This document shows, one piece after another, positions 6,138 through 36,022 of a DNA stretch of 36,834 bases (positions within the stretch are counted from its first letter, which is position 1; each line of letters starts with the position of its first letter). This stretch comes from Dehalococcoidia bacterium (lineage in GTDB: Bacteria; Chloroflexota; Dehalococcoidia; GIF9; AB-539-J10). The position numbers and the translations under genes were made by a program. The DNA lies in assembly GCA_030606165.1 (NCBI GenBank), contig JAUWGZ010000003.1, forward strand, positions 1-36,834. Reading direction: 5' to 3'. The notes under the pieces are model-generated. The model worked only from the letters and a program-made list of their open reading frames with translations. It searched no databases and was not told where the DNA came from.

Positions 6138-6762
6138 ATCGGCCCTTGATGTATTTGTCAGGGTCAATCTTCTTAATACGTCTCCTATGTTCTCCACTGT
6201 CCTTACCTTCGCTAGCCCATCTTTCAAGGATGCGGGCGATATATTTCCAACTGCGCTTATTCAGCGTAACTGCTTCCTTAAAGGCTTCTTCAATCCACTG
6301 GGGTGGATAAAGCTTCTCCGCTTCCTTAAGTTCTTCAACAATCAGGGGCGTTATCATGCCGATATTCTGCTCGTAGAGAGCAAAGATGTTGACAGCCTGC
6401 CCGCCAGGGCTTGGCAGGCGGGCCGGCGGCTGATGGCTATCAGCGGTCAGAGAGTAAACATCCTCGAGCACTCCATTTATATTTAAAGTCGAGTGTAATA
6501 GAGCACCGTGCTCTACAGCCGAGTTCAAAGCCTGGCGGAGTGTCTTCTCGCCCATCGTAGCCAATAGTTCATGGGATAGCAATTCCTTATAAGTGACAAA
6601 ATAGGGACGCTCTTGCTTTCGCAGGATAAGATAAGAGACATATAACACTATCTTAAGTTCAGCCAGGTCTTGAATTTTAGGTATCGCCTGGGTAAAGAAA
6701 GAGTCAGGCAAGGAGATAAAATCTGTTTTCCTTTGAGAGCTTGCTAATTGCCGGTTAGGCAT
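6115..6762 (-). CDS. DnaD-like primosomal protein
   Basis: 215 residues from an ATG with AGGGTG upstream. The N-terminal part (about 1-100) resembles the winged-helix half of DnaD/DnaB(Bsu) proteins: LPDSFFTQAIPKIQDLAELK, then TLRQALNSAVEHGALL. The C-terminal part (about 125-190) has the DnaD helical signature NIGMITPLIVEELKEAE, PPQWIEEAFKEAV and SWKYIARILERWASEG, with the YIxxILxxW core. Family members help build the primosome and recruit the loader. Its location between dnaB and the DnaC-like gene fits. Residues PPARLPSPGGQ in the linker come from a GC-rich palindromic insert. Confidence 0.8.
   Translation of the reverse strand: MPNRQLASSQRKTDFISLPDSFFTQAIPKIQDLAELKIVLYVSYLILRKQERPYFVTYKELLSHELLATMGEKTLRQALNSAVEHGALLHSTLNINGVLEDVYSLTADSHQPPARLPSPGGQAVNIFALYEQNIGMITPLIVEELKEAEKLYPPQWIEEAFKEAVTLNKRSWKYIARILERWASEGKDSGEHRRRIKKIDPDKYIKGRYGHMVRR
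6395..6430 (-). repeat. GC-rich palindromic element inside dnaD-like gene
   Basis: GCCTGCC (6395-6401) and GGCAGGC (6413-6419) form a stem around an 11-base loop, followed by more GGC-rich sequence. It is far richer in GC than the flanking gene and encodes a Pro/Gly-rich linker. This looks like an inserted mobile palindrome, but no second copy is seen in this window. Confidence 0.5.
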
Positions 6763-18479: not shown

Positions 18480-19628
18480 ATGGAAGTGCTAAGTCCTTAC
18501 AAGGAAGCCACAGATGTGATACTCGAGGCTGGTGGCGAACCACTCAAATTGTGTTACCAGTGTGGTCTTTGCACCGGTATTTGTCCCTGGAACCTGGTCC
18601 GAAGTTTTGTCGTTCGCCGCATCATGCATGAAGCTCAGCTTGGGGCAACTGATTTTGGCAGCGAAGATGTCTGGACTTGCGTCACCTGTCGAGCTTGTGT
18701 TCAGCGCTGCCCCCGAGGCGTCGAGATAATAGATGTCATGAGGGCTATGCGCCGAGCCGTAGCTAGCCTGGGCATCGGCGTTGTCCCTGATGCCCTGAGA
18801 ATTTCAGCTAAGAACATCGCTGGCGTAGGTAATCCACTTGGTGAGGCACCAGAAAAGCGAGATGACTGGGCCAAAGAACTTAAGGTGAAAAGTTTTTCCT
18901 CGGGTACTGAAATACTTTATTTCCCTTGCTGTATTCCGTCCTATGATCCTGATGTAAAAACAGTGGCTCGATCTACCGCCACAATCTTCAATAAGCTTGG
19001 GATTAATTATGGCCTTATAGGCACTGAAGCAAAATGCTGCGGTGAGGCAATTAGAAAAGCCGGGTATGAAGATACGTTTCAAAGTCTGGCCCAAAACAAT
19101 ATTAATCTCTTTACCAGTAATGGTGTCAAAACCGTGGTAGTTTCCTCACCGCACTGCTACCACACTTTCAAAAATGAGTATCCCGAGCTCGGAGGCAAAT
19201 TTGAAGTAATTCATATCACCCAATACCTGGCTTCACTTATCGAGCAGGGGAAATTGAAGCTCTCTAAAAAGATAAACAAAAAGGTAATCTATTCCGACCC
19301 CTGCTATTTGGGGAGACACAATGAGGTCTATGACGAGCCAAGGAGAGTTTTGCAAAGCATTCCCGGCCTGGAATTAATAGAATTTCCCGATGCTCGTGAG
19401 GATGCTCTTTGTTGTGGTGGTGGTGGCGGTAGAATCTGGATGGATACGCCGAAAGGGGAAAGGTTCTCTGATATAAGGGTGGAGCAAGCGGTTGAAAGGG
19501 GCGCTGATATTATAGCTCTGGCCTGCCCTTACTGCTTCCTAAACTATAGGGATAGTGTGCTCTCCATGGGCAAGGCAGAGACCATGCAGGTTAAAGATAT
19601 CGCTGAGCTTGTTGCTGAGGCAATGTAA
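18480..19628 (+). CDS. HdrD-like iron-sulfur protein (two CCG domains)
   Basis: 382 residues. Two [4Fe-4S] motifs open the protein: CYQCGLCTGICP and CVTCRACVQRCP. Two cysteine-rich CCG domains follow. The first has FPCC, KCCGE and SSPHC; the second has DPCYLGRH, LCCGGGGG and ACPYC. This is the HdrC-HdrB fused layout of HdrD/GlpC-type proteins, whose CCG domains hold non-cubane clusters that reduce disulfides or pass electrons. In the first CCG domain the usual CxxC is SPHC, so one ligand is missing. The start is weakly supported by GAGG twelve bases upstream. It is the first gene of the hdr cluster, 16 bases before the HdrA fusion. The substrate is unknown; methanogen-type CoM-CoB disulfide is not expected. 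Confidence 0.9.
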   Translation: MEVLSPYKEATDVILEAGGEPLKLCYQCGLCTGICPWNLVRSFVVRRIMHEAQLGATDFGSEDVWTCVTCRACVQRCPRGVEIIDVMRAMRRAVASLGIGVVPDALRISAKNIAGVGNPLGEAPEKRDDWAKELKVKSFSSGTEILYFPCCIPSYDPDVKTVARSTATIFNKLGINYGLIGTEAKCCGEAIRKAGYEDTFQSLAQNNINLFTSNGVKTVVVSSPHCYHTFKNEYPELGGKFEVIHITQYLASLIEQGKLKLSKKINKKVIYSDPCYLGRHNEVYDEPRRVLQSIPGLELIEFPDAREDALCCGGGGGRIWMDTPKGERFSDIRVEQAVERGADIIALACPYCFLNYRDSVLSMGKAETMQVKDIAELVAEAM

Positions 19629-19644
19629 TAATGGAGGAATCAAA

Positions 19645-22600
19645 ATGGCAGATGTAAAGATTGGCGTTTACATCTGCCACTGCGGCTTAAACATCGCTGG
19701 CGTAGTGAATGTGGAAGAGGTAGCCAGGTATGCTGGAACTCTACCCAATGTAGTGGTCTCTCGTGACTACAGGTATATGTGTTCTGATCCAGGGCAGGAT
19801 CTCATAAAGAAGGACATCAAAGAGCTAGGGCTCAATCGAGTTGTGGTTGCTTCTTGCTCGCCAAGAATGCATGAGCCTACATTTCGTAAGGCTTGTCAGG
19901 ATGCTGGGCTAAATCCTTATTTGTATGAACATGCTAACATCCGGGAGCACTGCTCCTGGCCCCATGCTACAGAAAAGAAGCGAGCTACAGAGAAAGCCAA
20001 GGATCTTGTGCGTGCTGCAGTAAGGCGTGTTTACTGGCATGAAGCTCTAGAGGTTAAGGAGGTTCCAGTTAATCCTAACGTCTTAGTTGTTGGTGGGGGG
20101 ATCGCTGGCATTCAGGCTGCTTTAGATATTGCTGATGGGGGTAAGAAAGTCTATATGGTAGAACGCGACCCATCCATCGGCGGACACATGATCCAGCTCG
20201 ATAGGACCTTCCCCACTTTGGACTGTTCGGAATGCATTCTCACACCAAAAATGACTGACGTTGGTCACCATCCTAATATTGAATTAATGACCTCAAGCGA
20301 AGTGGAGGAGGTTTCAGGCTATATTGGCAATTTCAAGGTCAAAGTGAGAAAGAAGCCTAGATATGTCGACCTTGACAAATGTAACAGCTGTGGAGACTGT
20401 GCTAAGGCATGTCCTGTTGAGGTGCCTGATGAGTTTGAAATGAATTTGCACATGAGAAAGGCAGCGTATCTTCCTCTCCCCCAGGCTGTCCCTGCTGCTT
20501 TTGCCATTGACAAAAGAGGCATCTCATCATGTCGCATTGCTTGCCCAGCTGGGGTCAACGCTCATGGCTATGTCGCCCTTATTTCGCAGGGCAAGTTTAA
20601 GGAGGCTTTGGAGCTAGTTAGACGAACTATGCCATTTGCCGGGGTTCTTGGGCGGGTCTGCACCCACCCCTGTGAGCTAGACTGTGAGCGGGGGAAGCTT
20701 GATGAATCTATTAGCATCCGTGCTTTGAAGCGCTTTGTAGCTGACTATGAGCTGAGGGTGGGTAGAGAAAAGGCAACCCCAATTGAAAGGACGAAAGAAG
20801 ATAAAGTGGCTGTTATTGGCTCTGGGCCTGCTGGGCTTGCCTGTGCTTACGATTTGATAAGAGAAGGTTATGCCATTACCGTTTTCGAGGCCCTCCCTCA
20901 GGCAGGCGGTCTTCTGAGTTATGGTATCCCTGATTATAGATTGCCCAAAGAGGTAGTGGATAACGACATCAGTTACATACAAGAACTAGGGGTGGAAATC
21001 AAGACAAAGACCCCGGTGAAAAATCTTACTGAAATCTTCAATCAAGGATATAAAGCCATTTTCCTGGGCACAGGTGCTGGCGTCAGCCAAAAGATGGGAA
21101 TTCCTGGTGAGGAAACCAAAGGGGTGATCCATTCCCTTGACTTTCTAAGGATGGTGAATTCTGGAGTGGAGATGAAATTGGGGAGCCGGGTGGCGGTTAT
21201 TGGTGGCGGCAACGCAGCTATTGATGCTGCCAGAGCAGCATTACGCCTCGGGGCAAAAGAAGTTGCCATCGTTTATCGTCGTTCTCAAGTTGAAATGCCC
21301 GCTATAAGAACAGAAATTGAGGAAGCCGAGCGAGAAGGAATCAAATTCCACTCCTTGGCTGCTCCAGCTAAAATCCTGTCCAAAGATGGTCAATTATCTG
21401 CAGTGGAATGTATCAGGATGGAATTAGGCGAACCCGACGCTAGTGGTCGCCGACGTCCCGTACCTATCAAGGGTTCGGAGTTCACCATGAATGTCGACAA
21501 TTGCGTAATCGCCATTGGTCAGGCCGTGGATAAAACAATGCTGCCTAAGGAGTTAGACTACACCGGTTGGGGCACACTTGAGGTCGACCCCGTTACTTTA
21601 CAAACAAATATTGATAGTGTTTTCGCTGGCGGCGATTTAGTCTCTGGACCTGCTGATGTTGTTGCCGCGGTTGCTGCTGGCAAGGAAGCAGCTATTTCCA
21701 TCGATCGCTATCTAAGAGGCATTAGCCTGACGGAGGAAAGGCAAATAACGCCGAAAAAAGTAGAGAAGGTATCAACGGAAGGAGTCAAGCCAAAAGCAAG
21801 AGCTGCCATGCCACTACTTCAAATTAGTGAGAGAAAAGGCTCCTTTGCCGAGGTTGAACAAGGCTTTGATGAAAAAACAGCCATTGAGGAGGCTAAGCGT
21901 TGTCTCAATTGTGGCGTGTGTTCGGAATGCTTTGAATGCGTGAAGGTGTGTGAACAGGAAGCGATTAACCACGAAATGAAAGAGGAGACGGTTGAGATAG
22001 AGGTAGGTTCAGCCATTCTGGCTACTGGTTACGATCAGTTTGATCCTAGTGTCATAACCCACTACGGATACAAGAAGTACGATAATGTTCTAACTGGACT
22101 TGAATTTGAGAGGATAACCTGTGCTGGAGGACCAACCCAGGGACAAATTCAACTTAAAGACGGTAGAGAACCAGAAAGTGTAGCCATAGTCCATTGCGTA
22201 GGCAGCCGCGATAAGAATTACCATGAGTATTGCTCCAGAGTGTGCTGCATGTATGGTCTCAAATATGCGGAATTGATAAAAGAATTTACCAAAGCCGAGG
22301 TATATGAATTTTATATTGACATGCGCTGCTTTGGAGAAGCCTATGAGGAATTTTACCAACACGTTTCGGAGATGGGAGTCAATTTCATCAGGGGCAAAGT
22401 TGCCAAAATAACCGACCAAGCTATAACTGAAGAGGAAAAGGGGAAACTGGTTGCTGTGGCTGAGGATACCTTACTGGGGAAGATAGTCCGTGTCCCAGTA
22501 GACATGGTTATCCTCTGTGCTGCCCTGCAAGCTCGGTCTGATGCCAGTGAGGTCGCTAGCCGTTTTACCATAGGTCAAAGAGGCGACAAATTCTTCTTGG

Positions 22601-23010
22601 AAACCCATCCTAAACTTGCTCCGGTAAACACGGCGACAGACGGAGTTTTCATCGCTGGTTGCTGTGAAGCACCAAGGGATATTCCCGATACCGTAGCCCA
22701 GGCATCCGCGGCAGCATCTAAGGCTTTGTCTTTGATAAGCAAAGGGAAGGTCACCACGGAAGCAGCTGTATCCCACGTTGATGAAACAATTTGTCATGGA
22801 TGTGGACGTTGTGAGGAAATTTGCACTTTTCACGCCCCCACAATCATTAGCAAGAATGGAGGCGTGGTTTCCAGTATAAATGAAGCCCTATGTAAAGGAT
22901 GCGGAGCATGTGCTGTTGTCTGTCCCACGGGAGCAATATCCATTAGGCATTTCAATATGCAGGAAATAGAGAGTTTGGTTGATGGCTTATTGGAGGTGTA
23001 CCATGGCTGA
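19645..23010 (+). CDS. HdrA with an inserted NfnB/GltD-type flavoprotein
   Basis: 1121 residues from the ATG at 19645 with GGAGGAAT upstream; HdrA alone is usually about 650. Order: HdrA N-terminal domain (1-140, VYICHCG), FAD domain (145-235) with [12 protein letters not shown] and the Cys motif LDCSECILTPKM, a ferredoxin-like CNSCGDCAKACP (246-257), then an inserted NfnB/GltD unit (about 290-695) with its own Fe-S cysteines (CRIACPAG, CTHPCELDC), FAD motif GSGPAGLACAYDL and nucleotide motif GGGNAAIDAARAAL. HdrA then resumes (about 750-1030: CLNCGVCSECFECVKVC, HCVGSRD, CSRVCCMYG) and ends in two [4Fe-4S] motifs (CHGCGRCEEIC, CKGCGACAVVCP). HdrA flavins bifurcate electrons; the insert suggests NAD(P)H as a direct partner. 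MvhD overlaps by eight bases. Confidence 0.93.
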   Translation: MADVKIGVYICHCGLNIAGVVNVEEVARYAGTLPNVVVSRDYRYMCSDPGQDLIKKDIKELGLNRVVVASCSPRMHEPTFRKACQDAGLNPYLYEHANIREHCSWPHATEKKRATEKAKDLVRAAVRRVYWHEALEVKEVPVNPNVLVVGGGIAGIQAALDIADGGKKVYMVERDPSIGGHMIQLDRTFPTLDCSECILTPKMTDVGHHPNIELMTSSEVEEVSGYIGNFKVKVRKKPRYVDLDKCNSCGDCAKACPVEVPDEFEMNLHMRKAAYLPLPQAVPAAFAIDKRGISSCRIACPAGVNAHGYVALISQGKFKEALELVRRTMPFAGVLGRVCTHPCELDCERGKLDESISIRALKRFVADYELRVGREKATPIERTKEDKVAVIGSGPAGLACAYDLIREGYAITVFEALPQAGGLLSYGIPDYRLPKEVVDNDISYIQELGVEIKTKTPVKNLTEIFNQGYKAIFLGTGAGVSQKMGIPGEETKGVIHSLDFLRMVNSGVEMKLGSRVAVIGGGNAAIDAARAALRLGAKEVAIVYRRSQVEMPAIRTEIEEAEREGIKFHSLAAPAKILSKDGQLSAVECIRMELGEPDASGRRRPVPIKGSEFTMNVDNCVIAIGQAVDKTMLPKELDYTGWGTLEVDPVTLQTNIDSVFAGGDLVSGPADVVAAVAAGKEAAISIDRYLRGISLTEERQITPKKVEKVSTEGVKPKARAAMPLLQISERKGSFAEVEQGFDEKTAIEEAKRCLNCGVCSECFECVKVCEQEAINHEMKEETVEIEVGSAILATGYDQFDPSVITHYGYKKYDNVLTGLEFERITCAGGPTQGQIQLKDGREPESVAIVHCVGSRDKNYHEYCSRVCCMYGLKYAELIKEFTKAEVYEFYIDMRCFGEAYEEFYQHVSEMGVNFIRGKVAKITDQAITEEEKGKLVAVAEDTLLGKIVRVPVDMVILCAALQARSDASEVASRFTIGQRGDKFFLETHPKLAPVNTATDGVFIAGCCEAPRDIPDTVAQASAAASKALSLISKGKVTTEAAVSHVDETICHGCGRCEEICTFHAPTIISKNGGVVSSINEALCKGCGACAVVCPTGAISIRHFNMQEIESLVDGLLEVYHG

Positions 23011-23437
23011 GTTTGAGCCAAAGATTGTTGCTTTTGCCTGTAACTGGTGTACTTATGCTGCAGCCGATTTAGCCGGGACAGCCCGGCTTCAATATCCTCC
23101 CAATGTCTATATTGTGAGGCTGATGTGTAGCGGGATGATAAATGCCGATTATATCTTAAGAGCGTTTGAAAAAGGAGCTGATGGAGTCATAGTCTCTGGT
23201 TGTAAGTACACAGATTGCCATTATATCGATGGCCCGGTAAAGTGCGATGCCATGTTTGCCAAGCTAAAGAGGCTAGTCCATATTCTTGGTTTGGAGGACG
23301 AAAGACTAAGGCGCGAAATGATATCTACTTCCGAGGGAACGGTGTTTGCCAGAGTAGTCAAGGAATTTGTCGATCAACTTAAGAAGCTAGGGCCTTCACC
23401 CTTTTCATCTTTAAGAAAGGAGAAGGTAGCGGTTTGA
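23003..23437 (+). CDS. mvhD: MvhD-like [2Fe-2S] electron-transfer subunit (copy 1)
   Basis: 144 residues from the ATG at 23003, with GGAGGTG upstream. It has the MvhD pattern: KIVAFACNWCTYAAADLAG, VRLMCSGMI, VSGCKYTDCHYIDG and the RREMISTSEGTVFA segment. In known complexes MvhD carries a [2Fe-2S] cluster and passes electrons from hydrogenase or formate dehydrogenase to HdrA. It lies between HdrA and the HdrCB fusion, overlapping both (eight and four bases), so these three are probably one complex. A paralogue lies at 33161 next to the hydrogenase genes. Confidence 0.93.
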   Translation: MAEFEPKIVAFACNWCTYAAADLAGTARLQYPPNVYIVRLMCSGMINADYILRAFEKGADGVIVSGCKYTDCHYIDGPVKCDAMFAKLKRLVHILGLEDERLRREMISTSEGTVFARVVKEFVDQLKKLGPSPFSSLRKEKVAV

Positions 23438-24582
23438 GTTTAGAGGACATTATTCAAGAAACTAAGACCTATTACTGCCTGGAGTGTGGCAAATGTACTA
23501 GTGTATGTCCTGTCGCCAAATATGATCCAGCCTTCTCTCCGCGGATGATGATTGAAAATGCTCTACTGGGATTTGAGAATGACTTGATCTTCAACCGAGA
23601 ACTTTTCTCCTGCTTAACTTGTTACACTTGTCAGCAGAGATGCCCCTCTGATGTTGATTTTCCTGTTTTCATCCGCAAAGCCCGCGCTATGGCCCAGGAT
23701 AATGGACAGCATGGAATTTGTGCCCACTCGGGGCAACTACAATCTCTGGCACGACTTATGACAAGTCTTGACATTAAGCAAAGAAGATTGGAATGGCTAT
23801 CTGATGAATATCGTACTTCTGATGACTCCGATGTTCTTTTTTGGGTTGGGTGTGCTCCATATTTTGAACCCATCTTTGAGGATATCGAATTCAATGCTCT
23901 GGACATAACCAAGGCCAGCCTCAAGACCTTGAACTTGCTGGGGATCGAGCCCAAGCTGCTTCCTAATGAGAAATGCTGTGGTCATGATGCGCTTTGGACT
24001 GGCGATATAGAGACATTTAAGAAACTAGCCGAGCACAATGCCACCCAAATAAAAGAGGCCGGCGTGAAGAAAATAATATTCTCCTGCCCTGAAGGCTACC
24101 GAACATTCAAGCTGGATTATCCAAATTACGGCTTTGATGTAGGTTGTGAGTTACAACATATCTCTGAATTTCTGGCGGAGAGAATAGAAAAGGATGGGTT
24201 GAAGTTTAATGAAGTGAAAAAAAAGGTGACCTACCAAGATCCATGCAGGTTGGGAAGGCATCTGGGAGTCTATGATGCCCCTCGAAAGATACTTGAATCT
24301 ATTCCCGGCATAGAACTTGTCGAGATGCAATATAGTAGATGGGATTCTATTTGCTGTGGCACCAGTGCTTGGACTAATTGTGACTCGTGCTCCAACATGC
24401 TCCGGGCGGAAAGGTTGTCTGAGGCAACTGCAACCGGGGCTGAGACGCTCATAACCTGTTGTCCCAAATGTCAAACCCATTTTAGATGTGCCATGATAGA
24501 TAAGGGAGAGGAAAAGCGATCAATGCCAAATATTGAGATAATGGATTTGGCAAACCTGGTAGCAAGCGCTATGGGAGACTAA
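23434..24582 (+). CDS. Fused HdrC-HdrB (HdrD-like) subunit
   Basis: 382 residues from a TTG that overlaps the mvhD stop by four bases, with AAGGAG upstream. Two [4Fe-4S] motifs ([24 protein letters not shown]) make the HdrC part. The HdrB part has two CCG domains: VGCAPYF, KCCGHD and SCPEG, then [16 protein letters not shown] and CCPKC. In the first CCG domain the final CxxC is CPEG, so one ligand is lost. It is a paralogue of the protein encoded at 18480, with the same length but different Cys changes. It is the likely acceptor-side subunit of the HdrA-MvhD complex. The physiological disulfide or other acceptor is unknown. Confidence 0.91.
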
Positions 24583-24584
24583 TA

Positions 24585-25580
24585 ATGAACGGAGAGAACG
24601 GACGTAAATCGGTATTAGTAATCGGTGGTGGCATCGCTGGAATTCAGTCCTCACTTGACCTGGCCAATATGGGCTTTAAGGTGTATTTGGTGGAAAAGAC
24701 GCCCAGCATCGGGGGGAGGATGTCACAACTAGATAAGACCTTTCCCACTAATGATTGTGCCATGTGTATTCTCGCTCCTAAGATGATAGAGGCAAGCCAG
24801 CATCCTAATATAGAACTTCTGACCTATTCCGAGGTCGAGGGAGTCTCGGGAGAGGTAGGAAATTTCAGGGTCAAGGTTAAGAAGAAGGCGACGTACGTTG
24901 ATTGGGATAAGTGCACCGGCTGCGGGGAATGCTCTCAGATGGAGTTAACTGACACAAAGGAGTTTGAGGGTGAAATTTGGGTTGACAGGATTAGGATAGA
25001 CGAGGCGAGTTGCATCCAGTGTGGTGAATGCGCCCAAGCCTGTGTTGAAGAGAATAAGGAAAAGCATGCGATGACCAACATTGTGCTTGAAAGGCGAAAT
25101 TTCACTGAGCTTCCTCCAGAAGAACGAGAAGGAAGAGAACCTGAAACGTTGGCGCAGCGGATAGCTTTAATGGACGAGAAATCACGGATGGATTTTTGGC
25201 AGAAAGAACTCAGCAGATGCATAAAGTGCTTCGGATGCCGTGATGTTTGCCCTGTATGGATTTATGACAAAACTGAACTAGAAGATCCAGAGTGGATCAC
25301 GCCCGGGGAAATACCTCCTGCTGTTCCTCTCTTTCACATAATAAGGGCTTATCGCGTTGGCGATAACTGCATTAACTGTGGTATGTGCGAAGAGACTTGT
25401 CCTATGAGTATACCTCTGCGTACTATCCAGCAGCTTATGCAGCGTCAACCTCCTGAGTCAATTTTTGAAATCACTCCGGGCTTAGATGCGGAGACGAAAA
25501 AGAAACTCGTGCAAGCAGTGCGCAAGCAACCCAAAGCCGAGAAGAAACAACCTGCAGCCAAGAGGGAGGGAAGGAAATGA
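24585..25580 (+). CDS. N-terminal half of HdrA fused to FdhB-like iron-sulfur domain
   Basis: 331 residues from an ATG with GGGAG upstream. It begins directly at the HdrA FAD domain ([18 protein letters not shown]), includes the Cys motif [12 protein letters not shown] and [18 protein letters not shown], then leaves HdrA. The second half has [17 protein letters not shown] and [17 protein letters not shown], which resembles the C-terminal part of FdhB/FrhB-type subunits. A basic [12 protein letters not shown] tail ends it. The HdrA N-terminal domain and the whole C-terminal half are missing; the latter is encoded beyond fdhA at 27622. The stop overlaps the fdhA ATG. It probably links formate dehydrogenase to a split HdrA. 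Confidence 0.83.
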
Positions 25581-27616
25581 ATAGTGACTTTGTATTAACC
25601 GTATGTCCTTTCTGTGGCTGTGGCTGTCAGTTTTATCTCCAGACTATGGATAATGAGATAGCTGGAGTGGTTCCTTGCAAGACCGACGAAATAAGTGAAG
25701 GAAAGCTTTGTATAAAGGGAAGAAATGCAGCAGATTTTGTCAACCACCCTGACCGGCTCAAGTCACCCTTGGTAAAAAGAGATGGCAAATTTGAACCGGC
25801 AAGCTGGGATGAAGCTTTAGACATCGTGAGTAAACAGCTAAGCCAGATAAAGCAAATACACGGCCCTGATTCCGTAGGTGTCCTTTCATCTGCTAAGTGT
25901 ACCAATGAGGAAAATTTTGTCCTGATGAAATTTGCCCGGGCGGTCATTGGCACAAATAACGTTGACCATTGTGCTCGACTTTGTCATGCCTCGACGGTGC
26001 TGGGTTTAGTCAAGTCTTTTGGCAGTGGAGCGATGACAAACAGCGTACCAGAAGTGGAAGGTGCGGATTGTATTTTCGTGATAGGAAGCAATACGATAGA
26101 GCAGCATCCCCTCATAAGCTCAAGGGTTCTACGGGCCAAGGAAAAGGGAGCCAAGTTGATTGTGGTTGACCCGCGCCGTACACCTCTAGTTGAGTTTGCT
26201 GATGTTTATCTTCAGCATAAGCCAGGAACGGATGTTTGCCTGCTTAATGGCATTATGAATCTCATCCTTTCTTGGGATTTGGCTGACAAGGATTTCATTG
26301 CCCAGCGTACCGAAGGGTTTGAGGAATTGGAAAGGAAAGTGAAAGAATACCCACCAGAGAGAGTGTGCGAAATAACCGGAGTTGACCAAGCTGCTTTGGA
26401 GGGGGCAGCTCGAACTTATGGCGAAGCCAAAAAAGCGAGCATCCTATATGCCATGGGTATAACGCAGCATACCACCGGCACTGATAACGTGGAATCTTGC
26501 GCCAATCTGGCAATGCTCACCGGGAATGTTGGTCGCGAGTCAACAGGGGTAAATCCGCTTCGCGGGCAAAACAATGTCCAGGGTGCCTGTGATGTGGGCG
26601 GCTTGCCAAATGTTTACTCGGGCTATCAATCAGTTACAGATGGGACGGCAAGAGCCAAATTTGAAAAAGCCTGGGGGGTTAAGCTGCCACAAGAGGTAGG
26701 GCTCACTGTTACTGAGATGCCAGATGCTGCTCTTAATGGTTCGCTTAAAGCAATGTATATAATGGGAGAGAATCCCATGCTTTCTGACCCGGATATAAAT
26801 CACTTAAAGAAGGCTCTCAGTTCTCTCGATTTCATGGTGGTACAAGATATATTCCTGTCTGAGACGGCACAGTTCGCCCATGTGATATTGCCAGCCTGTT
26901 CCTTCGCTGAGAAGGAAGGCACTTTTACCACAACGGATAGAAGAGTTCAAAGAGTAAGGAAGGCAATAGAGCCCATAGGTGATTCTAAGCCGGACTGGCT
27001 CATAGTGGGTGAGCTTGGCCAAAAAATGGGGGGCAAAGGATTTGATTATAAGTCAGCTCAAGACATTATGAAGGAAATCGCACAGCTTACCCCCAGTTAT
27101 GCCGGTATTTCCTATGAGCGATTGGATGATGGAGAGGTTCTGGCTTGGCCATGCCCTTCGAAAGGACATCGCGGAACTAAGTTCCTTCACAAGGATGCCT
27201 TTACCAGAGGTAAGGGAAAGTTCTTTGCCATTGAGTATAAAGAGCCTGCTGAATTACCAGATAAGGAATATCCTTTTATCTTGACTACGGGTAGGTTAAT
27301 GTTTCAGTTTCATACTGGGACTATGACTCGCAGGATTCCTATCCTGGAGAGGGAACTCCCTACCGGTTTTGTGGAACTCAATACTGAAGATGCGAAAAAA
27401 CTCTCGATAGCACAGGGGGAAAAGGTAAAAGTAAAATCACGGCGAGGCGAAATTGAGATAAAGGCTTTCGTTACGGATGGAATTCTCCCAGGAGTGGTAT
27501 TCATACCTTTTCACTTTGCTGAATGTCCCGCCAATGAGCTTACCAGCAGCAACCTTGACCCTGAAGCTAAAATCCCCGAGTTTAAAGTCTGCGCTGTGAA
27601 AGTCTACAAGGGGTGA
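25577..27616 (+). CDS. fdhA: Formate dehydrogenase catalytic subunit (Mo/W-bis-MGD, Cys type)
   Basis: 679 residues, the length of cytosolic FdhA. The N-terminal [4Fe-4S] motif is CPFCGCGC with Cys45 in KLCIKG. The active site reads ARLCHAST, so Cys136-His137 stand where selenocysteine-His are found in other enzymes; there is no in-frame TGA. Further FDH marks are [29 protein letters not shown] and [17 protein letters not shown]. It oxidises formate or reduces CO2 using a molybdenum or tungsten bis-pterin cofactor. There is no Tat signal, so it is cytosolic. The flanking genes carry the two halves of an HdrA, suggesting formate-driven bifurcation. moaC at the right edge fits the cofactor need. 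Confidence 0.94.
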
Positions 27617-27621
27617 TAAAC

Positions 27622-29064
27622 ATGGCTGAAAAGGAAACAACCGTAATAACGGAAGCAGAGAAAATTTTAGATAGGGAAAACATAATAGCGAAAGCAGAGG
27701 AGGTCTTAGACCAAGGCTATGATGGCATCATTGGGCTTCGAAAAAGATGGGGACATGTAAGCCCTTATCTTTTTACAACTAAGGACGAGCTTAAAGAACT
27801 GGAACTGGAGCCCCGATATAACCTGGCAACTTTTGTTCGTCAACTCAAAAATAAATGGCCTGATGCAAGATTGGGGATTGTTTCTAGAGGATGTGACGAA
27901 AGGGCTTTAGATAAACTTGAAGAACTAGGTGTTTTTAGTAAAGAGGGCGTGGTTTTTATAGGTATAACCTGTTCCATGGAGCAGGCGGAGGAATGTAACT
28001 GTGAGAAGCCAATCTATACTCCCTTGGATTGCACCGGCTGCTGGAAGTGTATGGAAGAGTGCCCGAAGGATGCTATCACACGGATAAATGTTTGCCCCAT
28101 CCTGGTGCCTGATCAGTTTAACTTGGGCCTGGGGCAGAGAAAGGCCATCTATTTACCCTTCCCTCAGGCAGTGCCTAAGAAAAACGTCAGAGATCCCAAT
28201 CACTGCCTACGAATCACAGAGAAGCTCGAATGTAAGGGATGTGAAAACGCTTGCGAAGCTAAGGCAATCGTTCATGACATGGCTGACCAGATTGTGGATC
28301 TGGATGTTGGCGCCATTATAGTCGCCACTGGCTTAGATTTCTACGATGTCTCAGGACTGGAAGAGTATGGCTATGGAAAGATAAAGAATGTCGTCACGGC
28401 TATGGAATATGAGAGATTAACCTCAGCATCAGGACCCACTTTGGGATCGCTTGACCGACCATCAGATGGCAAGGTCCCTCACAATATAGCCTTCATTCAA
28501 TGCGTTGGCTCCCGCGATTTTAGGTGTGAACCATATTGTTCTAGCGTCTGCTGCATGCATGCCACTAAGGAAGCCATGATGGCATATGAGCATGAGCCAG
28601 GGACGAAGTCCACTGTCTTTTATATGGATATGAGGGCTGTAGGCAAAAGGTTCCAGGAATATATTGCCAGGGCTAAAAGCGACTATAATGTGACTTATAT
28701 CAGGAGTCGCCCGGGCAGGATCGAAGTTAACCCTGAGAATGATAACCCTATTATCTGGTATGAGGATACAACTACTGGGGAAATAAAGAAATTTGAGGCA
28801 GAAATAGTGGTTCTTGCTCAAGCGATGATTCCTCAAATCACAAAGGACCTAGCAGAAATATTAGGTATAGAGTTAGATGAAAATGGCTTTGTGAAGACTC
28901 CAGGTGGATTCTTGCAACCTCTGGATACTACAAAGCCTGGCATCTTTGCTTGCGGCTATGTCCACAGTCCACGTGATATCCCGGATTCTGTAACCCAGGC
29001 CTCGGGGGCAGCGGGCAGAGCTGCTGAAGAGATTGCTTCGCTCCACTCGCAAGGAGGCAAGTGA
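27622..29064 (+). CDS. FdhB/FrhB-like domain fused to the C-terminal half of HdrA
   Basis: 480 residues from an ATG with GGGGTG upstream; the fdhA stop lies just before. The N-terminal part (about 1-125) resembles FdhB/FrhB beta subunits (GIVSRGCDERALDKLEELG, VVFIGITC). Next come CTGCWKCMEECPKD and CKGCENAC, then the second half of HdrA (YLPFPQAVP, GAIIVATGLDFYD, QCVGSRD, CSSVCCMHA, YMDMRAVG, GYVHSPRDIPDSV). There is no HdrA FAD N-motif and no C-terminal ferredoxin pair. With the protein encoded at 24585 it completes one HdrA chain. In the intact HdrA at 19645 these two halves are one polypeptide. Confidence 0.84.
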   Translation: MAEKETTVITEAEKILDRENIIAKAEEVLDQGYDGIIGLRKRWGHVSPYLFTTKDELKELELEPRYNLATFVRQLKNKWPDARLGIVSRGCDERALDKLEELGVFSKEGVVFIGITCSMEQAEECNCEKPIYTPLDCTGCWKCMEECPKDAITRINVCPILVPDQFNLGLGQRKAIYLPFPQAVPKKNVRDPNHCLRITEKLECKGCENACEAKAIVHDMADQIVDLDVGAIIVATGLDFYDVSGLEEYGYGKIKNVVTAMEYERLTSASGPTLGSLDRPSDGKVPHNIAFIQCVGSRDFRCEPYCSSVCCMHATKEAMMAYEHEPGTKSTVFYMDMRAVGKRFQEYIARAKSDYNVTYIRSRPGRIEVNPENDNPIIWYEDTTTGEIKKFEAEIVVLAQAMIPQITKDLAEILGIELDENGFVKTPGGFLQPLDTTKPGIFACGYVHSPRDIPDSVTQASGAAGRAAEEIASLHSQGGK

Positions 29065-29065
29065 A

Positions 29066-30745
29066 GTGGAAGAACCTCGTATCGGAGTCTTTGTCTGTCA
29101 TTGTGGCAGGAACATAGGGGCATATGTAGATGTTCCTGGAGTGGTGGAATACGTAAAGGGATTGCCTAATGTCGTGCATGCTGAGCGTAATCTCTACACC
29201 TGCTCTGAAGAGGGGATATCGGCGATTAAGAAGGGGATTCAGGAGCACAATCTGAACCGCGTCATAGTAGCTTCTTGTACACCTAGGACTCACGAGCCGC
29301 TCTTTAGGTCTGCCTGCGAAGCTGTAGGCTTAAACAAATATCTTTTTGAGTTTGTTAACATAAGGGATCAGTGCTCTTGGGTGCATATGCATGAGCCTGA
29401 GAAAGCTACGGAAAAGGCTAAAGACCTCATCAGGATGGGAGTAGCCAAAGCGAGGCTGCTTGAGCCGCTGGAGGAGATTGAAATCAAGGTAACTCCTTCT
29501 GCCTTAGTGATTGGTGGCGGAGTTGTAGGCATGGGCGCTGCCTTAAATTTGGCAGCGCAAGGTTTCGAAGTCCATGTGGTGGAAAAGGAGCCAGAACTTG
29601 GAGGAACTCTTCGCAGTGTTTATAAGCTTTACCCCACGAATGAAGAGGCAACAAAGGTAACCAATCCACTTATTGAAAAAGTCAAGAATGATCCTAAGAT
29701 TAAGACTTATCTTTCGGCCAAAGTAAAAGAAGTCAGCGGGTTTATAGGGAATTTTGATGTCGTTGTGAATCAAGACGGAGAAGAGAGTAAGTTCAATGTA
29801 GGTACTATCATAGTAGCCATCGGGGCTGATAAGTTAAAACCGACGGGGCAATATGGCTATGGTGAGATGCCTAATGTCCTCACTCAATTAGAGCTGGAGG
29901 AACGGATGAAGAAGGGTGAGCCGGTAGGTCAGAATGTTGTAATGATCAATTGTGTGGGAGCCCGGGTTCCGGAGAGAACTTATTGCAGCAGAATCTGCTG
30001 CATGACGGCAATTAAAAATGCCTCCCTTATTAAAGAATCGAACCCAAAGGCAAAGGTCTGGATATTGCACCGAGACCTCATGACTTATGGTGTGGACTTC
30101 GAGAACTATTATCGAAAAGCCATGGAACTGGGAGTTAGATTCATCAGATATAGCTTGGAAAGGCCTCCTCAAGTTATTGGGGATGGGAAAGCTGAGGAGA
30201 TAAAGGCATACCATGAACTACGAAGAGAGGAGATAGAACTTCCCTGTGATATGCTCGTTCTAACTACTCCCCTTATCCCTGCCGAGGATAACCAAGATAT
30301 CTCTAAGATGCTTAAAGTCTCCTTAGATGAGTTTGGTTTCTTCCTGGAAGCGCACCTAAAACTCCGACCTGTGGAATTTGCTATGGATGGTATTTACATC
30401 TGTGGCTCAGCAAAGTGGCCTACAGATGTGACCGAAGGAATCTCTCAAGCCTACGCTGCTGCTTCAAAAGCGGCCGGTCCCCTGAGAATGGGTTATGTCA
30501 AGCCTGAGGCGATAAACGCCTTGGTTAATGAGGATAAGTGCTCAGGCTGTGGCATTTGCGAACTTTTGTGCCCCTTTCAGGCTATTGAGCTTCAGCCTAG
30601 AGATGGGAAGAGAGTGTCCCATGTCAATGAAGCAGTATGCAAGGGTTGTGGCACCTGCGGTGCTGCCTGCCCTTCAGGAGCCATCGCCATGCACTACTTC
30701 ACTGATGAGCAAATTCTAGCTCAGGTAGAAGCTTTATTTAGCTAA
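29066..30745 (+). CDS. Second HdrA, short form lacking the DCSxCIL motif
   Basis: 559 residues from a GTG two bases after the previous stop, with AAGGAGG upstream; the longer frame has no site. It has the HdrA N-terminal domain (VFVCHCG, ASCTPRTHEPLF), FAD motif GGGVVGMGAALNLA, NCVGARVP, CSRICCMTA, CGSAKWPTDVTEG and two C-terminal [4Fe-4S] motifs (CSGCGICELLCP, CKGCGTCGAACP). Where other HdrAs have DCSxCILxPKM, this one reads YPTNEEATKVTNPLI, and the internal ferredoxin motif is also absent. It therefore lacks one cluster next to FAD and may not bifurcate. nfnA follows directly, so it may connect Nfn with the Hdr system. Confidence 0.9.
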   Translation: MEEPRIGVFVCHCGRNIGAYVDVPGVVEYVKGLPNVVHAERNLYTCSEEGISAIKKGIQEHNLNRVIVASCTPRTHEPLFRSACEAVGLNKYLFEFVNIRDQCSWVHMHEPEKATEKAKDLIRMGVAKARLLEPLEEIEIKVTPSALVIGGGVVGMGAALNLAAQGFEVHVVEKEPELGGTLRSVYKLYPTNEEATKVTNPLIEKVKNDPKIKTYLSAKVKEVSGFIGNFDVVVNQDGEESKFNVGTIIVAIGADKLKPTGQYGYGEMPNVLTQLELEERMKKGEPVGQNVVMINCVGARVPERTYCSRICCMTAIKNASLIKESNPKAKVWILHRDLMTYGVDFENYYRKAMELGVRFIRYSLERPPQVIGDGKAEEIKAYHELRREEIELPCDMLVLTTPLIPAEDNQDISKMLKVSLDEFGFFLEAHLKLRPVEFAMDGIYICGSAKWPTDVTEGISQAYAAASKAAGPLRMGYVKPEAINALVNEDKCSGCGICELLCPFQAIELQPRDGKRVSHVNEAVCKGCGTCGAACPSGAIAMHYFTDEQILAQVEALFS

Positions 30746-30769
30746 ATGAATTGGGATGGAGTTCACCAA

Positions 30770-31609
30770 ATGTTTCGGATTATTTCTAGAGAGACTTTAG
30801 GGACGAAAATTCATCTGTTCAAAATCGAAGCACCGGCAATTGCTAGAAAAGCGCTGGCGGGGCAGTTTGTTGTCATCAGGATTGATGAAAGGGGCGAGCG
30901 TATTCCTCTGACGCTTGCTGACTGGAATGGGAAGGAAGGCAGTGTTACCCTGGTGTTTCTGGAAGCGGGAGCGACAACCTTTAGGCTGGCGTTGCTGAAA
31001 GCCGGTGACTTCATTGCTGACTTTGTTGGTCCCCTTGGTGTACCATCGCATATTGACAAATTTGGTACTGTAGCCTGTGTGGCGGGAGGGGTTGGTGCTG
31101 CGTCAATAACGCCTATTGCCAAGGCACTGAAGGAGAAGGGAAACAAGATTATCTCCATTTTGGGGGCACGGAGCAAGGACTTGCTCTTTTGGGAAGATAA
31201 ACTACGCAGTGTCAGCCAGCGACTAATAGTTACTACTGATGATGGCACGTATGGTCGCAAAGGGGTAGTAACTGAGCCACTGAAGGAGCTGCTTGAGAGT
31301 GAGGAGAAGGTTGACCGAGTCATTGCCATTGGCCCGAGCATCATGATGAAGTTCTGTGCCCAGACCACCCTGCCTTTCGGGGTGAAGACTATTGTTAGCC
31401 TGAATCCAATAATGGTTGATGGCACCGGGATGTGTGGCTGCTGCCGGGTATCCGTTGGTGGCGTAACCAAGTTTGCCTGCGTGGACGGGCCTGATTTTGA
31501 CGGGCATCAGGTAGACTGGGACTTGCTCTCAGCCCGACTGCGTATTTATCTTGATGAAGAAAAACGCTCTTTTGAGCAGTGGCAGGCTCGGATGGGCAAG
31601 CGTTCTTGA
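30770..31609 (+). CDS. nfnA: NfnA-like ferredoxin:NADP reductase alpha subunit
   Basis: 279 residues from the ATG at 30770, which has GGAG at good spacing; another in-frame ATG at 30746 directly follows the HdrA stop. It has the FAD-binding GQFVVIRIDERGERIPLT, the NAD-binding VAGGVGAASITPIAKAL and the C-terminal [2Fe-2S] motif in GTGMCGCCRVSVGG with CVDGPDFDGH. NfnA pairs with NfnB to couple NADH and ferredoxin to NADPH. nfnB follows 21 bases on. Since the HdrA at 19645 carries an NfnB-like insert, NfnA could also bind there; that is inference. Confidence 0.93.
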   Translation: MFRIISRETLGTKIHLFKIEAPAIARKALAGQFVVIRIDERGERIPLTLADWNGKEGSVTLVFLEAGATTFRLALLKAGDFIADFVGPLGVPSHIDKFGTVACVAGGVGAASITPIAKALKEKGNKIISILGARSKDLLFWEDKLRSVSQRLIVTTDDGTYGRKGVVTEPLKELLESEEKVDRVIAIGPSIMMKFCAQTTLPFGVKTIVSLNPIMVDGTGMCGCCRVSVGGVTKFACVDGPDFDGHQVDWDLLSARLRIYLDEEKRSFEQWQARMGKRS

Positions 31610-31630: not shown

Positions 31631-33028
31631 ATGGCTAAGCTGAATCTCAACAGAGAGCCAATGACAAAGCAGGACCCCAAGACGCGGGGTAAAAACTTTA
31701 ACGAGGTTGCCTTGGGTTACAGCGCCGAGCAGGCTAAAGCCGAGGCAAGCCGTTGTATCCAGTGTCCCAAGCATTCCTGTACCGATGGCTGCCCGGTGGA
31801 GATAGATATCCCCGGTTTTATCAAGGCTGTCCTTGATGATAATATGCCCGAAGCGGTAAGGATACTCAAGGATAAGAACAGCCTGCCCGGCATCTGCGGG
31901 CGGGTCTGCCCGCAAGAGACACAGTGTGAACAAGCATGCTCGCTAGCTAAGAAAGGAGCGCCTATTGCCATCGGACGCTTGGAGCGTTACGTGGCTGACT
32001 GGGAGCGGACTAATATAGGGGCGCTGAACCCCAAGGCCGAGCCGCCCAGACCAACTGGTAAACAGGTGGCGGTGGTCGGCTCCGGACCAGCCGGACTGGT
32101 TGCCGCTGCCGATTTAGCCAAGCTCGGCCATAGCGTTACTCTTCTTGAGGCATTGCATGTAGCTGGCGGGGTGCTGATGTATGGCATCCCCGAGTTCAGG
32201 CTACCCAAAGAAATTGTGCAGGCTGAGGTTGCCTACGTCGCTTCCCTGGGGGTGAAGATTGAGCTGGATTCGGTAGTGGGGAAGGTGGTGACGCTGGATG
32301 AATTGCTGGAGAGCGGCTACCATGCTATTTTCTTGGGTACTGGTGCCGGAGCACCCATGTTTATGGACATTCCCGGCGAGAACTTAAATGGCATCTATTC
32401 AGCGAATGAGTTCCTGACCCGGGTTAATCTGATGAAGGCGTACCAGTTTCCTGAATATGATACGCCGGTGTTTGTGGGCAGAAGGGTGGCAGTGATTGGT
32501 GGTGGTAATGTGGCTATGGACTCAGCCCGGTGTGCTCTCCGACTTGGTACTGACGAGGTTTACATTATCTACCGTCGCTCAGAGGTAGAGATGCCTGCCC
32601 GCCGTGAGGAAGTTGAGAATGCCAAGGAGGAAGGAATCCAGTTCAAGCTGCTGACCAACCCAAAGAGGTATATCGGCAGTGAGTCGAACTGGGTAGTTGG
32701 TATAGAGTGTTACGAGATGGGGCTGGGTGAGCCTGATGAGAGCGGTCGGCGGCGCCCCATTGCCAAAGAGGGAAGTGAGTTTATCCTGGATGTGGATATG
32801 GTGGTAGCTGCCTTGGGCACCCGTCCCAATCCCCTTATTGCTCAAACTACTTCCGATTTGAAGACAACCAAGTGGGGTACGGTAGTGGCTGATGATACTA
32901 CCGGCAAGACGATGAAGGACAGAGTCTGGGCTGGTGGGGATATAGTTACCGGCGCCGCTACGGTAATAAGCGCTATGGGCGCTGCCCGCCGCGCAGCAAG
33001 GGATATAGATGAGTATTTGAGGGGGTAG
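31631..33028 (+). CDS. nfnB: NfnB/GltD-type NADPH-dependent flavoprotein
   Basis: 465 residues. The N-terminus has the cysteines of two [4Fe-4S] sites (CIQCPKHSCTDGCPVEI, GRVCPQETQCEQAC). FAD motif GSGPAGLVAAADL, the GVLMYGIPEFRLPKEI segment, NADP motif GGGNVAMDSARCALRLG and C-terminal AGGDIVTGAATVISAMG follow. It is the bifurcating flavin subunit of NfnAB, or a glutamate synthase small subunit; the adjacent nfnA favours Nfn. It is a paralogue of the insert in the HdrA at 19645 and shares nearly the same YRRSEVEMPARREEVE and LGEPDESGRRRP blocks. Its third-codon positions appear richer in G/C than those of the upstream hdr genes. Confidence 0.94.
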   Translation: MAKLNLNREPMTKQDPKTRGKNFNEVALGYSAEQAKAEASRCIQCPKHSCTDGCPVEIDIPGFIKAVLDDNMPEAVRILKDKNSLPGICGRVCPQETQCEQACSLAKKGAPIAIGRLERYVADWERTNIGALNPKAEPPRPTGKQVAVVGSGPAGLVAAADLAKLGHSVTLLEALHVAGGVLMYGIPEFRLPKEIVQAEVAYVASLGVKIELDSVVGKVVTLDELLESGYHAIFLGTGAGAPMFMDIPGENLNGIYSANEFLTRVNLMKAYQFPEYDTPVFVGRRVAVIGGGNVAMDSARCALRLGTDEVYIIYRRSEVEMPARREEVENAKEEGIQFKLLTNPKRYIGSESNWVVGIECYEMGLGEPDESGRRRPIAKEGSEFILDVDMVVAALGTRPNPLIAQTTSDLKTTKWGTVVADDTTGKTMKDRVWAGGDIVTGAATVISAMGAARRAARDIDEYLRG

Positions 33029-33160: not shown

Positions 33161-33604
33161 ATGGACAACTTTGAACCAAAAATAGTAGCTTTTTGCTGTA
33201 ACTGGTGCTCTTATGCCGGTGCTGACCTGGCTGGCACTTCTAGAATGCAATACCCCCCTGCTATCAGGATAATCAGGGTGATGTGCAGCGGCAGAGTAAG
33301 CCCTTTTTTGGTCCTTAAGGCCCTTAGCGTTGGTGCTGATGGCGTGTTAGTTCTTGGTTGCCATCCCGGTGATTGCCACTATATTGAAGGGAATTACAAG
33401 ACAATGCGCCGCATCCCGTTACTTAAGAAGGTGTTGAAGCAGTTTGGGATAGAGGAAGAAAGAGTTCGGCTGGAGTGGGTTTCTGCATCTGAAGGAGCAA
33501 AATTTGCGGAGGTAGCTAATAGTTTTACGCAATCCATAAAAAACTTGGGGCCAAGTACATTGGACAATTTAAAGCAGAGTTCTAAGGGGGCAAAGCATGG
33601 CTAA
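33161..33604 (+). CDS. mvhD: MvhD-like [2Fe-2S] electron-transfer subunit (copy 2)
   Basis: 147 residues from an ATG with AGGAGG. Motifs match those of copy 1: [40 protein letters not shown] and [16 protein letters not shown]. Its role is to pass electrons from the hydrogenase to an HdrA. The mvhG ATG overlaps its stop by eight bases. Copy 1 sits within the hdr genes, so the two copies may serve different donors (formate dehydrogenase and hydrogenase). Confidence 0.94.
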
Positions 33605-34556
33605 ACTTAAGATAGCTCTTTACTGGGCGGCTAGTTGTGGTGGTTGTGACATCGCCACCCTAGCAATAGGCGAAAAGATTTTGAAGCTAGCTGAGGCCGC
33701 CGACATCGTGTTCTGGCCGATAGGCCTGGATTTCAAGTATGCTGATGTAGAGAAGATGCCAGATAAAAGTATTGATGCCTGTCTATTTAATGGTGCTATT
33801 CGGACTTCGGAGAATGAGCATGTTGCCAAGCTCTTACGAGCCAAATCTAAAATAATGATCGCTTATGGCTCTTGTTCCTATGAAGGCTGTATCCCCGGGC
33901 TGTCTAACTTCTACAATCGGCAGATGACATTCGAGCACGTCTACATAGAAACCCCAACGACTGATAATCCTGGGAAAATTTTCCCTCAGACGAAAGTTAA
34001 GGTGCCCGAGGGTGAGCTTGAGCTCCCTGAGTTCTATGATACGGTTAAGACTCTGGCCCAAACCGTGGATGTCGATTATTTCGTCCCCGGTTGTCCCCCG
34101 GAAGAAAAGACTACCTGGCTTGCCCTTGAAGCTTTGATTACAGGCAAGTTACCACCGAAAGGGACTGTCATAAGTCACGCGGTAAAGGCTGTTTGTGATG
34201 AGTGTCCTCGTAAGAAAGGGGAAAAGAAAATCAAAAAATTCTATAGACCTTACGAAATAGTCCCTGACCCGGAAATATGTCTACTGGAGCAGGGATTGTT
34301 GTGCTACGGCATAGCTACTCGGGGCGGCTGTGGTGCTCTCTGCCCTCAAGCCAATATGCCTTGCACCGGCTGTTATGGACCAGTGGAAGGAGTAATTGAC
34401 CAGGGGGCTCATTTTTTGAGTGCTCTTTCGTCTATCATTGACTCCAACGACCCTGAGGAAATCCAAAAAATAATTGATGATATTCCTGACCCGGCAGGCA
34501 CTTTTTATCGCTACAGTCTGCCAGATTCATTACTCAGGAGGGCGAGGATAAAATGA
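33597..34556 (+). CDS. mvhG: [NiFe] hydrogenase small subunit (group 3c, MvhG)
   Basis: 319 residues with no Tat signal, as in cytosolic group 3 enzymes. The proximal-cluster cysteines are in [22 protein letters not shown] and [11 protein letters not shown] second part has [26 protein letters not shown] for further clusters. It passes electrons from the NiFe site to MvhD. It overlaps mvhD at its start and mvhA at its end (ATGA), so the three are co-translated. Confidence 0.95.
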
Positions 34557-36022
34557 AAAAAATAATGATAGACCCCATCACCCGACTTGAAGGGCACGGT
34601 AAAATTGCCATCTTCCTCAATGACGATGGCGGGGTAGCCAATGTTTATTTCCAGGTTCCCGAGCTCAGAGGCTTCGAGAAATTTTCCGAGGGCCGCCCGG
34701 CTGAGGATATGCCCCAGATAACTCAGCGTATCTGCGGCGTCTGCCCTGAAGCCCACCATATGGCATCAACCAAAGCCTTAGACGCCCTGTTCCATGTCGA
34801 ACCAACCAGCACAGCCAAAAAGCTGCGTGAGCTTCTTTATAGCGCGTTCTATGTGACTGACCATACTACCCACTTTTATATCCTTGCTGCCCCCGATTTC
34901 GTTATGGGACCGGATGCTCCTCCTGCTGAGCGCAATATACTTGGAGTAATCGCCAAGGTAGGATTGGAGCTGGGAGGCGCTGTAATCAGGACACGCCATG
35001 AAAATCACTGGGTTATCCAGACAATTGGTGGCCGTCCAATACACCCCTGCTTCGGATTGCCCGGCGGTGTAAGCAAGGCCATAAATGAAGAGGAAAGGGC
35101 AAAGATAGAAGAAATAGCCAAATCGTCGGTGGAGTTCGGCAAATTATCGCTCAAAGTCTTTGATGACGTGGTTCTCAAGAACAAAGAGTATTTGGACATG
35201 GTCCTGAGCGATACTTTTACCCACCGGACTTATTCTATGGGGTTGGTTGATGAAAATAATAAGGTCAATTTCTACGATGGCAAAGTTCGTGTGGTTGACC
35301 CTGAGGGCAAAGAGTTCTGTAAGTATGCCCCTCGGGACTATCTGGAGCATGTGGCGGAACATGTCGAGCCCTGGACATATCTCAAGTTCCCTTATCTTAA
35401 GAATGTCGGCTGGAAAGGTTTTGTTGACGGCAAAGATAGTGGAGTTTATCGATGCACACCTCAATCACGGCTAAATGCTGCCGATGGTATGGCAACTCCT
35501 CTAGCTCAGGAAGAATATGAAAAGATGTATTCCACTCTTGGTGGCAAGCCAGCCCACTATACTCTGGCAACCCACTGGGCACGCCTGATTGAACTTCTTT
35601 ACGCCGCTGAAAGAATGGTGGAGCTTGTTCGAGATCCGGAGATAACCAGCCCGGATATTCGTACCATTCCTACGGCAACGCCTGACGAAGGGATAGGTAT
35701 TGTTGAAGCCCCGCGAGGTACACTTACCCATCATTACATAACTGACGAAAGAGGGATTATAAAGAAGTGCAACTTGATTGTCGGCACTACCAATAACCAC
35801 GCGGCTATCTCCATGTCTATCAAAAAGGCAGCCGTAGACCTGATAAAACCTGGTAAAGAGATAACTGAAGGTTTGCTCAACCGCATCGAGATGGCATGGC
35901 GTCCCTACGATCTCTGTCTTGCCTGTGCCACTCACTCTCTCCCTGGGCAAGCGCCTCTGGAAGTGACCATCTATGACGCCCAGGGCAACGAGCTTAAGAA
36001 ACTGAGCCAGGGCATCTCATAA
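34553..36022 (+). CDS. mvhA: [NiFe] hydrogenase large subunit (group 3c, MvhA)
   Basis: 489 residues. The N-terminal motif PITRLEGHGK and nickel ligands RICGVCPEAHH are present, and the C-terminal ligands lie in YDLCLACATH. The usual DPC reads DLC here; both Cys and the final His are kept. The last 28 residues after that His would be removed by the maturation protease encoded next door. It splits H2 or makes it in the cytosol. The unit mvhD-mvhG-mvhA matches the Mvh part of the Mvh-Hdr complex of methanogens. No hyp genes are in the window. Confidence 0.95.
   Translation: MKKIMIDPITRLEGHGKIAIFLNDDGGVANVYFQVPELRGFEKFSEGRPAEDMPQITQRICGVCPEAHHMASTKALDALFHVEPTSTAKKLRELLYSAFYVTDHTTHFYILAAPDFVMGPDAPPAERNILGVIAKVGLELGGAVIRTRHENHWVIQTIGGRPIHPCFGLPGGVSKAINEEERAKIEEIAKSSVEFGKLSLKVFDDVVLKNKEYLDMVLSDTFTHRTYSMGLVDENNKVNFYDGKVRVVDPEGKEFCKYAPRDYLEHVAEHVEPWTYLKFPYLKNVGWKGFVDGKDSGVYRCTPQSRLNAADGMATPLAQEEYEKMYSTLGGKPAHYTLATHWARLIELLYAAERMVELVRDPEITSPDIRTIPTATPDEGIGIVEAPRGTLTHHYITDERGIIKKCNLIVGTTNNHAAISMSIKKAAVDLIKPGKEITEGLLNRIEMAWRPYDLCLACATHSLPGQAPLEVTIYDAQGNELKKLSQGIS

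Follow-up and report, generated by a model that had tools for sequence, protein, structure and literature searches.

The gene at 29066-30745 is predicted to encode one side of an asymmetric HdrA heterodimer, the arm half (A''), a reading given a probability of roughly 0.8. Its partner A' would be encoded in two pieces (24585-25580 and 27613-29064) lying around fdhA, and the flavin of A' would be the one that splits electrons. Judged from sequence, the 29066 product is most likely neither a damaged nor a simplified enzyme, its missing parts being found in the upstream partner genes. The domains and cluster ligands of the two partners are complementary, their genes are linked, natural fusions occur and the fold matches that of known HdrA. 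The role of Cys197 as a ligand in trans and the arm mechanism across the dimer come from the literature. Heterodimer assembly, the direction of electron flow and the link to formate are proposed.

The window is the whole stretch of DNA analysed (36,834 nucleotides). The following features were predicted for the two partners and the gene between them:

24585 to 25580 (+): N half of HdrA', the Rossmann part of the FAD domain with Cys194/Cys197 and without an N-domain, joined in one polypeptide to the C-terminal dicluster half of an FdhB/FlxC-like protein
24756 to 24767 (+): DCAMC of the HdrA' N half, carrying Cys194/Cys197
25577 to 27616 (+): FdhA, formate dehydrogenase alpha (TIGR01591, 910 bits)
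27613 to 29064 (+): C half of HdrA', with the N-terminal half of an FdhB/FlxC-like protein, the inner ferredoxin and the C half of the FAD domain (CCCC, E356, K409), without a C-terminal ferredoxin
29066 to 30745 (+): HdrA'' (predicted arm half), with N-domain, FAD domain lacking both Cys194/Cys197 and the inner ferredoxin, and two C-terminal [4Fe-4S] motifs
29066 to 29485 (+): N-terminal cluster domain with Cys 11, 13, 46 and 71
29642 to 29674 (+): NEEATKVTNPL, a Cys-free stretch where DCSxCILxPKM is expected
29951 to 30001 (+): proximal-cluster Cys (CVGARVPERTYCSRICC), kept
30524 to 30685 (+): C-terminal ferredoxin pair, two CxxCxxCxxxC motifs, kept

The ORF at 29066-30745 encodes 559 amino acids, and its GTG start is preceded by AAGGAGG. 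The product aligned to HdrA of M. thermolithotrophicus (5odc_A) without gaps over residues 1-234. In this alignment Cys194 and Cys197 of 5odc_A are replaced by Glu194 and Lys197. The alignment resumes at 5odc residue 311, the inserted ferredoxin of approximately 75 residues being missing. The original prediction of a Cys-free replacement, a lost inner ferredoxin and remaining C-terminal ferredoxins was thus borne out. It had also placed the motif in two other HdrA pieces of the window, where it reads DCSECILTPKM (19639-23010) and DCAMCIL (24585-25580). The cysteines of the 29066 product are at positions 11, 13, 46, 71, 84 and 103 (N-domain), 296, 307, 311 and 312 (proximal cluster), 394 and 446, with eight more in the C-terminal ferredoxins. 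No replacement cysteines around the Cys-free stretch were found in this inventory. The equivalents of E356/K409 are E278/K317 and are kept, as is the proximal [4Fe-4S] Cys quartet (386/399/403/404 in 5odc).

Orthologs at 74-87% identity also have a Cys-free stretch (PTNQEAVKLIKP and similar), and a sequencing error, which the original prediction had named as a possible refutation, or a frameshift was therefore ruled out. Selenocysteine encoded by TGA at position 197 was ruled out as all codons are sense codons. Two full-type HdrA genes at other loci (L074 and L081) do have TGA at the Cys197 position, probably encoding selenocysteine, and PDB 9sfi_A has X there.

Among the features of a canonical homodimeric HdrA, the 29066 product has the N-domain Cys, E356/K409, the proximal quartet and the two-cluster C-terminal ferredoxin; it lacks the Cys197 trans ligand (Lys instead) and the inserted ferredoxin domain. 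It resembles a heterodimeric half of the HdrA12 type in having an N-domain and a C-terminal ferredoxin but no Cys197. It is adjoined by a partner with Cys197 and without an N-domain, made up of 24585-25580 plus 27613-29064. The GltD/NfnB domain at the inner ferredoxin that marks Type III HdrA is absent from 29066 and present in 19639-23010.

In each HdrA, the N-terminal cluster takes one of its ligands, Cys197, from the dimer partner (PMC9012536). The motif described in the original prediction as lying next to FAD is therefore a trans ligand, and no ligand set for a cluster near the FAD of its own subunit. ANME archaea encode tandem or fused HdrAs with complementary loss of Cys197 and the N-domain, for which heterodimers were proposed (PMC9012536). 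In the arm mechanism derived from cryo-EM, each FAD receives electrons from the opposite chain's arm and drains into the inner ferredoxin within its own polypeptide (PMC12350162). Electrons exit through HA4' to the heterodisulfide side and, carried by the C-terminal shuttle cluster HA3, through HA5' (PMC12350162).

HdrA modules were surveyed in 80 loci, one genome per species, together with own-genome paralogs and the window (83 loci, 246 HdrA FAD modules). Because A'' served as the query, the sample is biased toward loci holding A''. Modules with an N-domain and without Cys197, as in 29066, were classed as A'', those with Cys197 and without an N-domain as A', and those with both as full type (homodimer type). 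There were 121 A'', 104 A' and 19 full-type modules. The two modules with neither trait were both cut by a contig start. An A'' was present within 6.5 kb downstream of 103 of the 104 A' modules, the remaining one being at an edge. Sixty-one A'' modules were fused to A', 42 had A' just upstream, 17 were cut by the sequence start and one (L049), the single apparent exception to A' partnership, had a run of N at the expected place of A'. The order was A'-A'' in 61/61 fusions. The inner ferredoxin was found in 92/92 A' and 3/117 A'' modules; the C-terminal ferredoxin was found in 0/92 A', while two motifs were found in 115/117 A''. N-domain Cys 11/13/46/71 were near-invariant across A'' modules of bacteria and archaea, so the cluster is maintained despite the loss of each module's own Cys197. 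E356/K409 were kept in 105/117 and the proximal cluster in 115/117 A''. Pairs of A' and A'' were found in many phyla of both domains.

In a tree of the FAD C-half 29066 fell in a clade of 116 rows with 97% local support, of which 113 rows were A'', archaeal ones included. The two module types formed largely two old clades with 3-4 type changes. The counts therefore reflect one ancient split, and many independent losses were ruled out; the Fisher value obtained in the survey does not count as independent evidence.

The stop and start codons overlap at both fdhA borders and both cassette junctions are in frame. The active-site motif of the window FdhA is CARLCH, with Cys where its relative in L137 has TGA (Sec). 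The same cassette is present in L136, from the same genus, and L137, and in both the counterparts of 27613 and 29066 form a single polypeptide. This fusion is the strongest single argument for pairing of 29066 with the 27613 product. The cassette (FdhB-C/FdhA/FdhB-N) is in frame within A' in the window and in genomes G364 and G143, and within a full-type HdrA, with N-domain and Cys197, in G409 (L165). An assembly chimera as the source of the split partner is unlikely given the in-frame junctions, the overlapping codons and the same cassette in G364, G143 and G409. When the FdhB-N/inner-ferredoxin piece was searched in 400 genomes of the phylum the window was the sole match, so the cassette is rare.

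The structure model of the 29066 product had a pLDDT of 89.6 and matched the whole of the arm-bearing HdrA 8rvu_A with a TM of 0.90. A natural A'-A'' fusion from the window's own genome was modelled with a pTM of 0.89. The chain that this model covered best was 8rwn_A, a shorter HdrA core of 428 residues (TMt 0.93, 2.0 A); the match was read as the A' half by its length and 44% identity. No A'/A'' heterodimer chain was among the best PDB matches.

The remaining genes around the pair were predicted as follows, the start of the HdrA-NfnB fusion being taken as 19639 and its end as 23010:

18480 to 19628 (+): HdrBC-like subunit 1 (CCG domains)
19639 to 23010 (+): separate HdrA of homodimer type (N-domain, Cys197 and C-terminal ferredoxin present), with an NfnB/GltD domain at the inner ferredoxin
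22979 to 23437 (+): MvhD (FlpD) subunit
23434 to 24582 (+): HdrBC-like subunit 2
30746 to 31609 (+): NfnA-like (DHODB Fe-S binding)
31631 to 33028 (+): NfnB/GltD-like
33161 to 33604 (+): MvhD
33597 to 34556 (+): MvhG-like hydrogenase small subunit
34553 to 36022 (+): MvhA/VhuA-like [NiFe] hydrogenase large subunit

Elsewhere in the window, 4791-6227 (-) encodes a DnaC-like protein that carries two ATPase repeats and, as an insert, the peptide RHSERSEES, which resembles a translated repeat element.

Cys197 of A' would complete the N-domain cluster of A'', so a Cys197 copy of its own would be useless to A''. Together A' and A'' would provide one full HdrA domain set, compared to two sets in a homodimer. 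Electrons from H2 would pass through MvhAGD to the A'' arm and on to the FAD of A'. From there, one electron would reach an HdrBC-like subunit by way of the A' proximal cluster, and the other would leave through the inner ferredoxin of A', which would be joined to the formate dehydrogenase module. The division fits the arm mechanism: the arm domains are found in A'', the inner ferredoxin and trans Cys in A', and FAD, E356/K409 and the proximal cluster in both. As a counterpoint, a pure arm would have no use for the last three, which are nevertheless retained in A''. Conservation of E356/K409 and the four proximal Cys in most A'', 29066 included, would suit a heterodimer with two bifurcation sites, the FAD of A'' bifurcating too, as both FADs have been suggested to do in two-module (type II) HdrA (PMC12054007). 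This was considered unlikely, since the arm mechanism (PMC12350162) needs the arm of the other chain and A' is armless, with neither N-domain nor C-terminal ferredoxin; the mechanism also drains each FAD into its own inner ferredoxin, which A'' does not have.

The original prediction was of a plain electron carrier that had lost bifurcation and passed electrons from ferredoxin or hydrogenase to NfnAB. Part of this stood. The 29066 product has neither inner ferredoxin nor Cys197; without the former it lacks its own route out to ferredoxin, and it is probably the side that delivers electrons. The nfnAB genes also directly follow it in the window. As a whole a plain carrier is very improbable, given that the FAD-site markers E278/K317 and the proximal cluster are retained and that an A' partner was beside or fused to every A'' with enough sequence. 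The position before nfnAB, whose conservation had been named as a check, proved variable among relatives. While nfnAB is directly beside HdrA'' in the window, L016, L017, L020 and L142, it is displaced by hdrA-mvhD:hdrBC in L018, L019 and L025, and in L022 and L038 its place is taken by mvhDGA. A decaying HdrA, or a homodimer whose N-domain cluster is incomplete or has other ligands, was given hardly any weight. Ligand loss alone is compatible with decay and the single-chain fold is intact in the model, but the 74-87% conservation in relatives, the near-invariance of the other Cys in bacteria and archaea and the constant presence of a complementary A' partner all speak against this reading. 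As a separate observation, NfnA (30746-31609) has 94% identity to that of L017 and 52% to that of L016, compared to 86-87% to both for 29066, and nfnA seems to have been exchanged between close relatives.

Other members of the genus encode A' in a single gene, with an NfnB domain within the inner ferredoxin. The outer A' pieces of the window have 80-86% and 73-79% identity to this NfnB-type A'; against the Fdh-type A' of L136 the values are 63% and 44%. For the inner pieces (FdhB-C, FdhA and FdhB-N) identity to L136 is 62-79%, and NfnB-type A' genes lack them. The switch in identity falls at approximately residues 110-130 in the product of 24585 and at approximately residues 200-220 in that of 27613. 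This pattern suggests that the Fdh cassette took the place of an NfnB insert. Relative to the intact fdhB-fdhA of L166, L167 and L170, the cassette is circularly permuted. A circle carrying fdhBA may have recombined into the ferredoxin sequence, a route expected to give such a permutation. At two loci of the window's own genome, L013 (8738-14752) and L014 (11732-17862), nuoE and nuoF lie within A', whose C half is fused to NuoG-N; L166 is arranged likewise. In these three loci the HdrA N fragment is a separate small gene upstream. It is tentatively suggested, at somewhat less than even odds, that the inner-ferredoxin site is an exchangeable socket in these Dehalococcoidia, taking an NfnB insert, NuoE-NuoF-NuoG or FdhB-C/FdhA/FdhB-N while A'' stays constant. 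The window would have changed from NfnB to Fdh by recombination inside the ferredoxin coding sequence, and the low-potential electrons of A' would pass directly to or from CO2/formate and not NAD(P)H.

An apparent loss of function is thereby recast as a testable division of labour, in which ligand and domain losses in one HdrA module are matched trait by trait in its partner in bacteria and archaea. The A'/A'' asymmetry fits the cross-dimer arm mechanism from cryo-EM and offers natural mutants for testing it, as an arm could serve only one flavin. That Fdh, Nfn and Nuo plugs share a single site suggests a route by which anaerobes may rewire bifurcating complexes to new electron carriers.

Heterodimeric or fused HdrAs without these parts have already been described (PMC9012536, PMC9430772, PMC12054007), and 29066 is a member of this group, here in Chloroflexota. 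What appears new is an A' partner split by an in-frame, circularly permuted FdhB/FdhA cassette, apparently replacing the NfnB insert of the nearest relatives. No description of an Fdh-split HdrA or of plug exchange at the inner ferredoxin was found in the literature search. The ANME HdrA 12/13 and 5/6 tandem pairs (Chadwick 2022, PMC9012536) likewise place an HdrA with N-domain and without Cys197 beside one with the opposite traits. The window pair differs in being bacterial and in having its Cys197 partner split in two genes around fdhA. For ANME HdrA 3/4, an order opposite to that of the surveyed fusions is stated in PMC9012536. HdrA of the Moorella thermoacetica MetVF-HdrABC-MvhD complex (PMC9430772) also has two FAD modules, the C-terminal one without the inserted ferredoxin and with the C-terminal ferredoxin. 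Its N-terminal module is likewise interrupted, by a GltD/NfnB domain where the window partner has Fdh, but it is one polypeptide and the window has separate genes. The homodimeric HdrAs of HdrABC-MvhAGD (5odc), Elp-Hdr (8rvu) and Fdh-Hdr-Fmd (7bkb) share the fold, FAD site, proximal cluster, N-domain and C-terminal ferredoxin with 29066, but have Cys197 and the inner ferredoxin in each chain, both of which it lacks. The full-type HdrA at 19639-23010 with its NfnB/GltD insert is as in ANME-1 HdrA 9-11. Type III HdrA (PMC12054007) carries its GltD insertion at the inner ferredoxin, as do 19639-23010 and the A' of relatives, while 29066 is free of an insert and its window partner carries the Fdh cassette.
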